A stretch of 64,000 nt of DNA from Hyphomicrobiales bacterium (GTDB lineage Bacteria > Pseudomonadota > Alphaproteobacteria > Rhizobiales > Rhizobiaceae): the NCBI GenBank assembly GCA_900466575.1, contig UBMP01000016.1, positions 124,001 to 188,000 of the forward strand, in the 5' to 3' direction. Below, piece by piece: positions 9,377 to 61,563 of the stretch. The notes under the pieces are model-generated. The model worked only from the letters and a program-made list of their open reading frames with translations, had not been told where the DNA came from and searched no databases. The position numbers were made by a program, and so were the translations under genes. Within the stretch, counting starts at the first letter, position 1, and each line of letters begins with the position of its first letter.

Positions 9377-9420
9377 CTTCTCCCCATCGGGGAGAAGATG
9401 TCCGAAGGACAGATGAGGGG
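9377..9420 (-). repeat. Dispersed palindromic repeat, copy B between gcvH and gcvP (inverted)
   Basis: CTTCTCCCC and GGGGAGAAG (9377-9397) form the terminal palindrome. TGTCC-GAA-GGACA (9399-9411) forms the core, and the unit ends GAGGGG. It is oriented opposite to copy A, so the roughly 300 bp gcvH-gcvP gap is largely filled by an inverted pair of these elements. Confidence 0.7.
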
Positions 9421-58100: not shown

Positions 58101-58951
58101 AGAAGGCCGTCGTCGGCGGTCACAAGGTCTATCTCCGCACCGGCGAATTCGGCGACGGCCGCCTCGGCGAGATCTTCATCGACATGCACAAGGAAGGTGC
58201 TGCCTTCCGCGCCATGATGAACAATTTCGCCATCGCGATCTCGCTTGGCCTGCAATATGGCGTGCCGCTCGAAGAATATGTGGAGGCCTTCACCTTCACC
58301 AAGTTCGAGCCGGCCGGCATGGTTCAGGGCAATGACGCGATCAAGTCGGCGACCTCGATCCTCGACTACGTCTTCCGCGAACTGGCCGTCTCCTATCTCG
58401 ACCGCAACGACCTTGCCCATGTCGACACGTCCGACTTCGGCAACACGGCGCTCGGCAAGGGCATCCAGGAAGGCAAGACCAACCTGATCTCGACGGGCTG
58501 GACCCGCGGCCACAAGCCGGTCCTCGTCGCCGGCGGCCACGCGCCGCTGTCCGAGCCGAAGGGAGCCGCAACCGCAGCGCCTGCGACCGCCCGCGCGTCG
58601 AACGTCATGGCCTTCTCGGGCTCTGCCGCCCGCAAGATCGAAGCGGTCGCGTCCGAAGACGCTGCTACCAGCTTCAAGCGTGACTACGAAGAGCGCGCCG
58701 CCGAACTCGCCGAAGAAATCGCCGAAGAGGCCCCCACGGTCGAAATCACCGCCCTCTTCTCCGACAAGGCCGCAGCCGATGCCGCCGCCGCCAAGTCGGA
58801 CGCCAAGAAGATCGAAGCCGACCGCCGCATGAAGTCGATGATGCAGGGCTACACGGGCAACATGTGCTCGGAATGCCAGAACTTCACGATGGTGCGGAAT
58901 GGGACGTGCGAGAAGTGCGACACGTGTGGGGCGACGAGCGGGTGCTCTTGA
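55163..58951 (+). CDS. nrdJ: Vitamin B12-dependent ribonucleotide reductase (class II)
   Basis: Makes deoxyribonucleotides using adenosylcobalamin, with or without oxygen. The ATG at 55163 follows AGGACTGAGAAG and gives 1262 residues, normal for the large alphaproteobacterial NrdJ. Visible are [60 protein letters not shown], the active-site region [20 protein letters not shown] near residue 475 and [20 protein letters not shown] near 674. The C-terminal TNMCSECQ-type zinc/redox tail ([20 protein letters not shown]) ends the protein. NrdR-like boxes lie upstream. It depends on cobalamin, whose lower ligand is supplied by BluB. Confidence 0.98.
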
Positions 58952-59005
58952 GCCTTCGTGGATAAGTCGTAACGCGGCTTAGCCAACACGTAATTTGACG
59001 CTATG

Positions 59006-59048
59006 ATCTCCCCGCGGTGATTGAGTTCGCTGCGGGGAGATTTGTTTT
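59006..59048 (+). terminator. Terminator of nrdJ
   Basis: ATCTCCCCGC (59006-59015) pairs with GCGGGGAGAT (59032-59041), followed by TTGTTTT. Confidence 0.85.
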
Positions 59049-59062
59049 AAGAAAGGCAAGTA

Positions 59063-59854
59063 ATGGACAAAATAAATTCAATTCCAGCACTCGGAAAAGA
59101 GTCCTTTTCATGCCCAAATTGCAAGGCGTTTGCTCACCAAACTTGGTACAATGCAGGAGCACTCCAATGCGAAAAAGAAAATCCACCTTGGATTCCGGCG
59201 GATAATGCAGTCGAAATAATAGAAAAAGGGGCAGACAAAAATTTCGATCAAGCAAACCTAATCGCATATATCCGAAAGAGGCTCACCAAAAGACCATTCT
59301 TTGACAAGAACGACAAATGGAACACTCACCGCCCGCTACATAATATATCATATTCAGAATGCTTCTCATGTGGAGAGTTCTCAGTCTGGCTTTATGACCG
59401 ACTCATATATCCATCAACCGAACTAGATATCGAAATTCATCCTGATGCACCGGATTCCGTCAGGCCTTTCCTAGAAGAAGCGAGAAATGTGTTCGCAAGG
59501 TCTCCTAGGGCGGCAGCTGCGATGCTCAGACTCGCGCTGCAAAAGCTGTGCATAGAGCTTGGCGGGCTGGGTAAGAACATCAACGAAGACATCGGAAGCC
59601 TCGTCAAAAAGGGCCTAGATGCCAAAATTGTAAAGGCACTCGACGTTGTAAGGATCGTTGGAAACAACGCCGTCCACCCTGGTGAGATAAGCTTCGATGA
59701 TGACGGAGAAACAGTTCTAAAGCTGTTTAAATTGATCGATTTTACGATAACCGCTATGATTTCTCAGCCCAGAGAAATAGAAGAGTTATTTGGGCAGCTT
59801 CCCGATGGCGCGAGAGAAGCTATTGAACGACGCGACAAGCAGGCGCAGGATTAA
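59063..59854 (+). CDS. DUF4145 domain protein with zinc-ribbon-like cysteines
   Basis: A 263-residue protein in noticeably AT-rich DNA compared with its neighbours, suggesting recent acquisition. The N-terminal part has cysteine pairs CPNC near residue 17 and CFSC near residue 100 that could form one zinc site. From residue 130 the DUF4145 region follows: EARNVFARSPRAAAAMLRLA, LGKNINEDIGSLVKKGLDAK and VRIVGNNAVHPGEISF. DUF4145 is common in defence islands and restriction-associated loci, but its role is not established. It begins 15 bases after the nrdJ terminator and precedes the hairpin-DUF559 element. Confidence 0.85.
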   Translation: MDKINSIPALGKESFSCPNCKAFAHQTWYNAGALQCEKENPPWIPADNAVEIIEKGADKNFDQANLIAYIRKRLTKRPFFDKNDKWNTHRPLHNISYSECFSCGEFSVWLYDRLIYPSTELDIEIHPDAPDSVRPFLEEARNVFARSPRAAAAMLRLALQKLCIELGGLGKNINEDIGSLVKKGLDAKIVKALDVVRIVGNNAVHPGEISFDDDGETVLKLFKLIDFTITAMISQPREIEELFGQLPDGAREAIERRDKQAQD

Positions 59855-59906
59855 CTCTGAGCAAAGAACGACAAAGCGCAAAAACATGCCGTCGAACCCT
59901 AACCGC

Positions 59907-60194
59907 CCCCTCACCTGCGATTTCTAACACTTAGCTAAAGCTAAGATGTTGAAATCGCTTCCTCTCCCACAAGGGGAGAGGTGGAGGGAAGCGCGCGCGG
60001 CGGGCTCCAGTCTCCCCCTTGGTGGGGGAGAAAGCAAAATCAACTCTTAGCCGCAGGCTAAGTGTTAGATTTTGCAAGAGAGGGGGTCCGGGCGGCAACT
60101 ATCGGCGCGCACAAACTACCCCCTCACCTGGAAAATCTAGCACTTAGCTGAAGCTAAGATGCTGATTTTCCGTCCTCTCCCACAAGGGGAGAGG
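59907..60194. repeat. Left array of three covarying hairpins flanking the DUF559 gene
   Basis: Three structured units occur in orientations +, -, +. Their 42-base core hairpins lie at 59917-59958, 60034-60075 and 60130-60171. Shaft ends are GCGATTTC/GAAATCGC, GCAAAATC/GATTTTGC and GGAAAATC/GATTTTCC; the apex is always CTTAGC-loop-GCTAAG or its near equivalent. Each unit ends with a palindrome such as CCTCTCCC-ACAA-GGGGAGAG (59961-59981, 60174-60194) or TCTCCCCC-TTGGT-GGGGGAGA (60011-60031). No gene lies in 59855-60251. Confidence 0.9.
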
Positions 60195-60251
60195 CGAAAC
60201 CCCTGGCTTTTCAGGATTGCCACAAACGCCCCCTCGCGCATCCTAAACAGT

Positions 60252-60611
60252 ATGCGCCAACGTCACCCGCCAAGCCACCGCACCTTCGCCCGCGCCATGC
60301 GCCGCGACGCCACGCCGGCGGAGGCGAAGCTGTGGCAGGCGCTGCGGGGCGGACAGCTTGAGGGCTACAAGTTCAAGCGGCAGGTCCCGCTCGACGGCTA
60401 CATCCTCGACTTCGTCTGCTTCGAGGCGCGGCTGATCATCGAGATCGATGGCAGCCAGCATGCGGAAAACGTCCGGGATCTGGTGCGGGATCGGCATTTC
60501 GCGGCGCTGGGGTTCCGGACGCTGCGGTTCTGGAACGACGAGGTACTGAAACGGTGCGATGACGTTTGTCGGATGGTGCTGATGGAGTTGATGAATACGG
60601 GGGAAGGATGA
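60252..60611 (+). CDS. DUF559 endonuclease domain protein (Vsr/restriction-endonuclease-like)
   Basis: A 119-residue protein with the DUF559 fold, related to very-short-patch-repair nucleases. The ATG at 60252 gives a start like that of family members (RTFARAMRRDATPAEAKLWQ followed by ALRGGQLEGYKFKRQVPL). The catalytic region shows DGYILDFVCFEARLIIEIDG, with acidic residues and SQH of the PD-(D/E)XK type near residues 52-72, and the C-terminal FAALGFRTLRFWNDEVLKRC. The upstream in-frame region lies within a repeat and is not translated. It sits between two three-hairpin arrays, suggesting that enzyme and repeats belong together. Confidence 0.9.
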   Translation: MRQRHPPSHRTFARAMRRDATPAEAKLWQALRGGQLEGYKFKRQVPLDGYILDFVCFEARLIIEIDGSQHAENVRDLVRDRHFAALGFRTLRFWNDEVLKRCDDVCRMVLMELMNTGEG

Positions 60612-60625
60612 ATTGGAGGGCGCAC

Positions 60626-60946
60626 CCCCTCTCTTGCAAAATCTGTGACTTAGCCTTTGGCTAAGATCACGATTTTGCTTTCTCCCCCACCTTAGGGGGA
60701 GATGAGAGGATGCCGGACCGGCTTGCATCCTCTCAAGGCCGAATGCTTGAGTACAAGGGTATCCGCGCGCTCCAATCTCCCCCTTGGTGGGGGAGAAAGC
60801 GATTTCTTACATTTAGCCACAGGCTAAGTGTTAGAAATCGCAAGAGAGGGGGTCGCGGGGACAAAACTGCCCCCTCACCTGGAAAATCTAGCACTTAGCG
60901 TTCCGCTAAGATGCTGATTTTCCTTCCTCTCCCACAAGGGGAGAGG
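60626..60946. repeat. Right array of three covarying hairpins flanking the DUF559 gene
   Basis: Core hairpins lie at 60636-60678, 60799-60841 and 60881-60923, in orientations +, -, +. Shafts are GCAAAATC/GATTTTGC, GCGATTTC/GAAATCGC and GGAAAATC/GATTTTCC: the same three types as the left array. The inner four-base stems also covary (for example GTGA/TCAC, AGCA/TGCT). Terminal palindromes lie at 60681-60702, 60776-60796 and 60926-60946. Confidence 0.9.
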
Positions 60947-61428
60947 CTAACCCAGCCTTACCCGTTTTCCCCATTTCAAAAACCGCCCTTATCCTGAACC
61001 CCTTCCGCCACCGGATGGGCCCGCGACGACGGGTTCAGGCGGGAGGAGGGCTTGGTGGCAATCTTCGTAACGTGCGGAGGCTGTCATCAGGGGGCGCGGG
61101 CGGCGGTGGATGAAACAACATCCAACGAAACGACTCCCCCGATGGGCTGCGAATAGCTCGGCGGCCTGGCTACGCCAGAGAACCCGTCTGCCTCCGCAGA
61201 CGGTTTAGCGAGGCGGCCCGCGCTTGAGGAATGGAGTCGGATGAGGCTCCCCTCGGTAATCTCGACGGGTCGCGCTGGCGCTCCGCCGTATTTTTAAACT
61301 ACCAATCAGGGCGGCGCGTCAGCGTGGCTCTCCGGAAGCTGATGTCCAGAGACAGGGGCGGAGGCCCAAAGACCGGAGGACAACTTGGGAGAGGTTTTTC
61401 CCGAGGCTTTTGGCGTGGCGGGACGTCA

Positions 61429-61474
61429 CTCTCCCCCTTGAGGGGAGATATCAGCGAAGCTGACAGAGAGGGGT
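61429..61474 (-). repeat. Simple copy of the palindromic repeat near the chemoreceptor gene
   Basis: TCTCCCCC-TTG-AGGGGAGA forms the terminal palindrome (61430-61448), TCAGC-GAA-GCTGA forms a short core, and the unit ends GAGAGGGGT. It is the layout of the larger units with a small core. Confidence 0.65.
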
Positions 61475-61519: not shown

Positions 61520-61563
61520 ACCCCCCTCTGCCCTGCCGGGCATCTCCCCCTCAAGGGGGGAGA
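61520..61563 (+). repeat. Simple copy of the palindromic repeat near the chemoreceptor gene, opposite orientation
   Basis: ACCCCCCTCTG, then core GCCC-TGCC-GGGC (61530-61541), then the terminal palindrome TCTCCCCC-TCAA-GGGGGGAGA. It forms an inverted pair with the copy at 61429-61474. Confidence 0.65.

Follow-up and report, generated by a model that had tools for sequence, protein, structure and literature searches.

Why does a small nuclease gene stand exactly between two groups of three similar hairpins? The question is raised by one locus in a 64,000-nucleotide stretch of a Hyphomicrobiales genome (the window), where a gene for a 119-amino-acid DUF559 (PF04480) nuclease (60252..60611, plus strand; assigned by profile, fold and alignment) is framed by six repeat units. 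A sequence-only reading of the window had described six hairpins with apical CTTAGC/GCTAAG stems, four-base inner stems and eight-base basal stems, and had placed the gene between two trios of them; both observations hold. Upstream lie unit 1 (59906..59981, plus strand; found by folding and by covariance model R1 at 94.3 bits), unit 2, inverted relative to unit 1 (60011..60086, minus strand; 94.5 bits), and unit 3, the nearest to the gene on this side (60119..60194, plus strand; 92.2 bits). Downstream, unit 4 (60625..60702, plus strand; 93.7 bits) lies 13 nt past the DUF559 stop codon and pairs with the inverted unit 5 (60776..60852, minus strand; 85.5 bits), which is followed by unit 6 (60870..60946, plus strand; 92.2 bits). 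All six are assigned to class C of the repeat classes described below. The order in the window is thus +,-,+ / DUF559 / +,-,+, and because the two trios share one order, the nearest upstream unit breaks the foot-to-gene rule found in the host family: the foot of unit 4 points to the gene and that of unit 3 points away from it.

Each unit measures about 77 nt and consists of a C-rich foot, a variable hairpin of about 40-43 nt with a CTTAGC apex, and a second hairpin. In the six window units the foot reads CCCCCTC(A/T)C(C/T)TG and the second hairpin has the form CTCTCCC(C)-loop-GGGGAGAG; in unit 1 these parts are the foot CCCCCTCACCTG, the hairpin at 59917-59958 and the second hairpin CCTCTCCC-ACAAG-GGGAGAGG. 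The conserved CTTAGC apex had been taken as the key feature, a view that did not survive comparison, since the parts recurring across classes are the C-rich foot and the second hairpin instead.

All six window hairpins fold far better than their shuffles (z -6.2 to -11.6), and their stems do covary. The covariation set comprises 29 copies of the source genome, six from the window and 23 from elsewhere; the latter were selected by a pattern fixing the foot, the apex and the start of the second hairpin, so that only the basal and inner stems provide free evidence of covariation. In this set the score is 0.312, against 0.115 for shuffled and at most 0.117 for slid stems; 97.2% of the cells pair, compared with 42-52% with slid partners, and 87 cells are changed on both sides, compared with 28.5 in shuffles. 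The pairs with two-sided change (10 of 26) are equalled by 29 of 500 shuffles and are therefore not clearly above them, and the further pair types number 18, fewer than in shuffles (20.8). Compensatory change had been equated with selection on the fold. What stands of this is that the palindrome is kept; selection on the folded form is not proven by covariation alone. Covariation among dispersed copies shows a palindrome that is maintained, through selection or through copying with arm correction.

The units are dispersed through the source genome. The covariance model built from the hairpins (R1) finds at least 39 class C units there, 39 being all the candidates scored, and six of these frame the DUF559 gene. 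DNA comparison gives at least 66 matches in the 5.14-Mb genome, drawn from 40 of 104 candidates scored and in many cases representing both strands of one unit. Several inverted pairs among the units listed for the model are spaced about 105-107 bp from start to start, and the feet of units 1 and 2 face outward, in which the pair resembles a REPIN. A class A unit is found about 0.5 kb downstream of the locus (61431..61473, minus strand), followed by a second one (61523..61562, plus strand); both were found with the general expression and classed by eye, and they have the plan of class C with a different linker hairpin. Elsewhere in the window, a single unit of class B type occupies 9380-9420. 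The segment 60986-61418 is a dispersed element of about 430 bp with dozens of matches in the genus at roughly 80-94% identity, for which an Rfam search returned nothing above threshold. Other Rfam hits scored far under the gathering thresholds and were dismissed as chance, and PADLOC gave nothing beyond a weak match to DpdF (E 7e-4).

The DUF559 frame most plausibly starts at 60252, giving 119 aa, and its product matches the PF04480 profile with E 5.6e-38 (129.6 bits; curated cut-off 20.6). Among 41 aligned DUF559 proteins an E, a D, an H and a second D are invariant (E66, D68, H72 and D78 in alignment numbering, which is two above the protein numbering), as are F43, R45, Q46, D55, F56 and RFWN; the window protein has all four of the former, which structural relatives suggest as a putative active site. 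An AlphaFold model of the protein (pLDDT 86.8) finds its best fold match in 3hrl, the DUF559 protein of Neisseria gonorrhoeae (E 9.4e-10), and its second in 3r3p_B, the homing endonuclease I-Bth0305I (E 2.9e-5). The match to Vsr itself is weak (1vsr, E 0.027; 1cw0_A, E 0.059). Vsr and the Vsr-like protein VsrA of Caulobacter have a domain or fold in common with the window protein. The likeness to I-Bth0305I is one of fold; judging by the flanking ORFs, the DUF559 gene here is free-standing. The source genome holds two DUF559 genes, the second framed by a different repeat of the same general plan.

Is the neighbourhood of gene and repeat peculiar to this genome? An exploratory set of 31 DUF559 genes, 29 of them from other genomes of the family, displays the plan CCCCTC - linker - CTCC(C/T) - loop - GGGGAG in nearly all visible flanks. 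This plan was fixed as one expression and then tested on 102 DUF559 genes fetched later (the held-out set); the 133 genes read in all come from at least about 150 places, the lowest-scoring having been left out. A unit lies within 300 bp of the DUF559 domain in 30 of the 31 exploratory genes and in 75/102 held-out genes, 31 of which have units on both sides, and is absent from that range in 27/102. The exploratory miss (L041) does contain a class C unit, recognized by eye, with a slightly altered last block. When copies beside DUF559 genes are counted against copies elsewhere, as had been proposed, the other ORFs of the same loci carry a unit in only 10/285 cases (Fisher 2e-45, with crude ORF calling), small ORFs in 2/135, dummy positions in 48/1611, and GIY-YIG genes (the best-scoring matches from the same genome draw) in 1/30. 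The held-out copies crowd around the gene, with 145/223 within 200 bp of the domain, 25 in the second 200 bp and 0-11 per 200 bp beyond; the median distance from the domain at the two gene ends is 67 and 52 bp, and the foot is turned towards the gene in 110/147 nearest units. An ungapped stem counter separated DUF559 flanks poorly from controls and was replaced by folding windows. Since these windows reveal some hairpin excess in GIY-YIG flanks too, hairpin strength alone was not used as evidence.

The flanks mostly carry one class of repeat per DUF559 gene. By script rules drawn up after the units had been read, the 133 genes divide into class A (29), B (28), C (19), D (10), E (7), other (14) and none (26). 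In a tree built from all 133 domains, which has few columns and many weak forks, the class label changes 30 times, against a mean of 85.2 for shuffled labels, and 0/200 shuffles reach so low a number. The changes number 3 for class C, 4 for A and 3 for E, and classes D (6) and B (12) are scattered over the tree. When each DUF559 domain is compared with the nearest one in a different genome, the two classes agree in 76/93 cases, against a mean of 22.7 and a maximum of 41 over 300 shuffles. For genes in the 22 multi-class genomes the agreement is still 42/53, so it reflects more than the genome in which a gene lies. Units of class A, B and E-like type are also present in named Shinella and Sinorhizobium records, so the host family is probably Rhizobiaceae.

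Class and clade also agree in the number of copies found in trans, in counts that take clade assignment from the 133 read genes and ignore genome kinship. Class C units, counted with model R1 at E <= 1e-4 under strict filters and with at most 39 scored per genome, are found in 19/19 genomes with a C-clade DUF559 gene (median 8), in 19/55 genomes with only other DUF559 genes (median 0) and in 5/47 genomes without DUF559. The hairpins are thus not equally common where the gene is lacking; equal frequency was the outcome that the sequence-only reading had named as speaking against it, and the check did not refute that reading. Class A units, counted by an exact pattern whose reversed control gave 0 in the rows listed, occur in 27/27 A-clade genomes (median 18, up to 266), in 29/47 genomes with other DUF559 genes (median 2) and in 5/47 without DUF559. 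The crossed class and clade comparisons are not significant (p 0.81 and 0.54). Units of any kind matched by the first genome pattern are found in 59/74 DUF559 genomes and 11/47 without; this pattern misses class A, in which the gap is too long, and class A was therefore counted apart.

Three genomes are exceptions. No DUF559 gene was found in G120 despite its 39 or more units of class C, and its congener G017 has a C-clade gene; G014 (at least 39 class C units) and G117 (29), both congeners of the source genome, have DUF559 genes of other clades only. Repeats persisting past the loss of their nuclease would explain these cases. The highest count seen is that of G050, with 266 class A units in 4.9 Mb and an A-clade DUF559 gene (L055).

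The neighbourhood extends well beyond the host family. The host-family expression is found within 300 bp in 11/29 DUF559 loci from further families of the class, against 1/29 farther away. In a plasmid collection, some of whose records are whole chromosomes, 28 records have a DUF559 match, and nine of these loci were inspected by eye. C-rich palindromes of similar style flank the gene on either side in six (Neisseria gonorrhoeae, Sinorhizobium meliloti, Deinococcus, Azospirillum, Picosynechococcus and Sphingomonas) and on one side in three (downstream in E. coli and Sinorhizobium sp., upstream in Shinella). A cross-phylum set consists of 80 new loci, the best 80 of 574, which by record title are mostly from Proteobacteria, together with Desulfobacterota, Cyanobacteria, Spirochaetes, Actinomycetota, NC10, Dadabacteria and others. 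A three-block test fixed beforehand (a 7-nt pyrimidine-rich stem, its partner and its mirror, with one mismatch allowed in each) finds the motif flanking DUF559 in 69/80 of these loci, leaving 11/80 without it, against 24/308 other ORFs and 9/145 small ORFs of the same loci (Fisher 1e-43); distances start at the matched domain in the case of DUF559 and at the ORF ends in that of the controls. A motif-free comparison agrees, in that a shared or inverted exact repeat of at least 13 nt is found in the flanks of 42/77 DUF559 genes, compared with 22/308 ORFs.

The blocks CCCCTC, CTCCCC and GGGGAG stand in the order that an intrastrand triplex requires, and in the 80 loci an exact third block is most often a mirror (44), followed by direct (35), reverse-complement (29) and complement (22) versions. 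C-rich three-block intergenic motifs, arranged in inverted pairs and present in many phyla, have been described before (Holder et al. 2015, PMC4666352). The available part of that paper counts a G/C-rich motif in over 260 genomes, relates the E. coli motif to Box C, and reports triplex formation in vitro by a single strand of that motif; it found no support for a stable triplex in the duplex, nor for one in vivo. The paper further reports that the flanking genes lack functional correlation and that the E. coli sites have no genes for mobility around them. The word "nuclease" is absent from its main text. Our units resemble that motif, as there described, in their three C-rich blocks, intergenic position and inverted pairs, and differ from Box C in that host-family classes A-D have an extra linker hairpin.

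To our knowledge, no enzyme has been assigned to the Box C/triplex repeats since they became known in the early 1990s; Box C was presumably first described at fabI/envM. The DUF559 gene of E. coli is ycjD (NCBIfam NF007294), located between sapF and fabI, and repeats of the Box C type occupy the ycjD-fabI spacer. A Box C pattern gives 15 matches, 12 of them distinct, in one E. coli record (reversed control 0). At least 80% of the ycjD-region query is contained in 3333/5426 genomes. From a sample of 60 evenly spaced E. coli records, one of which was an unusable small contig, 37 ycjD+ records have a median of 22 query-matching places (15-36) and 22 ycjD- records a median of 10.5 (2-20); the places counted match any part of the query, and we infer that most are Box C units. 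These records are not independent points, because ycjD presence follows phylogroup, and eight of the 22 ycjD- records, O157:H7 included, still have 20 matching places. In three ycjD- strains with enough flank an efflux operon is found at the ycjD site, an operon described at this position in the available part of PMC12817139.

The supposition of the sequence-only reading that hairpins and DUF559 protein belong together is thus strongly supported by held-out adjacency, class-clade agreement, class-specific copy number and the cross-phylum neighbourhood. Its alternative, in which the hairpins would protect the locus of the gene, gained no support. The observation made in the window is confirmed and proves to be the edge of something wide, wider than that reading had proposed. 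We consider it probable, from sequence comparison, that a superfamily of C-rich palindromic repeats has DUF559 proteins as its cognate nucleases. The superfamily would include class C in the window, classes A-E in the host family and the Box C/triplex motif in E. coli, and the nucleases would relate to their repeats as RAYTs do to REPs, with an unrelated enzyme and unrelated repeats. The gene would stay put, framed by units whose foot is mostly turned towards it, and units of the same class would be copied to, or retained at, other intergenic sites in trans. During replication a unit could be exposed as a single strand folded into its hairpins, and its CCCCTC foot may then form a triplex with the CTCCC/GGGAG stem. 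The Vsr-like nuclease would bind the unit via the foot and the second hairpin and nick at its edge, and repair or strand transfer would then copy the unit elsewhere or correct existing copies.

The precedent for such a relationship is close in arrangement. In the available part of PMC2817692, a RAYT gene is flanked by inverted cognate palindromes, with copies in trans and composite inverted arrays, RAYTs are said to be always flanked, and RAYT and REP trees are built. The DUF559 loci are alike in having a single gene flanked by inverted cognate repeats, many copies in trans and inverted arrays, and in a repeat class that tracks both the clade of the nuclease and copy number in trans. They differ in that DUF559 genes are not always flanked, unlike RAYTs as that excerpt has them; in that RAYT is a Y1 tyrosine (HUH) transposase and the window protein a Vsr-fold DUF559 protein; and in that the REP foot is GTAG or CGTC and the foot of the window units CCCCTC.

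An unlikely account is that the nuclease gene itself is mobile, as a homing gene would be, and lands beside its target repeats, which are spread by something else. Target preference would also yield class-clade agreement, and the closest fold after 3hrl is the homing endonuclease I-Bth0305I. The DUF559 cluster is, moreover, patchy within the genus: congener G121 has it at the same site with 89% identity, and there is no match at the window site in G014, G117, G122 and G123; the comparison gave no readable junction at this site. The surrounding segment (58946-60986) is variable, most of a DUF4145 gene being unmatched at the site in five congeners. Against a moving gene, DUF559 is found upstream of a gene that we take, from its N-terminal motif, to be hydantoinase-like, on the same strand, in 11 genomes of 10 genera, and keeps this place while the flanking class differs (B in 7 genomes, D in 4). 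In E. coli ycjD is at fabI in 37/37 sampled ycjD+ records, a weak test since the query spans the junction. The repeats also outnumber the genes, with at least 39 class C units against two DUF559 genes in the source genome. The arrangement of DUF559 resembles RAYT genes and their REPs more closely than a homing gene jumping between repeats.

Comparison of sites with and without repeats had been suggested as a check, and at three class C sites and two E. coli Box C sites it yielded no readable empty site or target duplication. The three class C sites in five congeners display presence, absence and replacement by other classes, with flanks 70-94% identical, blurred boundaries and one congener without flank at one site. 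At argE-ppc in E. coli a Box C unit is found in one strain and REP/BIME-type arrays of varying length in four others, as if Box C and REP/BIME repeats competed for sites. At wzxC-wcaK, MG1655 has a REP/BIME-type array and 19KM1831 a short spacer with neither repeat; the spacers are too different for a junction or target duplication to be read.

It is quite improbable that the nuclease serves in Vsr-type repair, acting on mismatches or deamination in C-rich repeats or methylated motifs, with the repeats as substrates that it keeps intact. The weak fold resemblance to Vsr would fit, as would the Caulobacter DUF559 protein VsrA, which the available part of PMC12907096 ties functionally to the cytosine methyltransferase ScmA and proposes as methyltransferase-linked mismatch repair. 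Yet in that part VsrA is tied to YGCCGGCR motifs, with palindromic repeats unmentioned, and repair alone neither puts units beside the gene nor sets a class-specific copy number. The class-specific copy number across the genome and the class-clade agreement would also be left unexplained if the repeats acted locally to regulate or insulate a dangerous nuclease gene (as terminators or RNA hairpins), with the other copies serving other genes. Units near both gene ends and the hairpin excess of GIY-YIG flanks are compatible with such a role, but an earlier study cited in the available part of PMC4666352 found the motifs to be without promoter or terminator activity, and we regard it as very improbable. 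Passive accumulation around a non-essential gene in a variable, repeat-collecting intergenic island is hardly credible, for although repeat families do replace one another at variable intergenic sites, GIY-YIG small genes (1/30) and small ORFs in the family (2/135) and across phyla (9/145) collect few units, and class matches in 42/53 genes of multi-class genomes.

Returning to DUF559 proteins as cognate nucleases of the C-rich repeats, we are inclined, with some reserve, to go further: they may be the missing enzymes of Box C/triplex-motif repeats throughout bacteria, and a second, independent solution of the RAYT-REP type. A Vsr-fold nuclease without transposase chemistry would then recognise folded C-rich repeats in a clade-specific way and spread or maintain them, in bacteria ranging from E. 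coli to rhizobia, Deinococcus and cyanobacteria. RIME, Sm-repeats, AB/C palindromes and the Brucella Bru-RS are, as far as the available excerpts describe them, likewise dispersed, intergenic and of unknown function, and are probably of the same order; classes A-D may overlap with some of these repeats, known here by mention only. No published link between DUF559 or ycjD and repeats was found in the open-licence literature, in the titles and abstract openings of the matches listed, and the main text of PMC12306157 (RepRanger) does not mention endonuclease, RAYT, triplex or CCCTC. A nuclease partner would make the origin of Box C repeats directly testable in E. coli K-12, would provide a likely function for DUF559, a common family, and suggests more than one origin of REP-like systems, each with an enzyme unrelated to the other. 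A nuclease of about 120 aa that recognises short folded DNA in a clade-specific way could also interest builders of DNA tools.

Some individual loci deserve mention. Two DUF559 genes (L113 and L115) have in-frame stop codons and are possibly decaying copies. In Sinorhizobium meliloti pSymB (L243, 1468-3213), the DUF559 gene and its flanking repeats adjoin an ISRm16 transposase gene. In Sphingomonas parapaucimobilis (L250, 1396-1881), the DUF559 gene lies between sufB and sufC, with C-rich palindromes close by.
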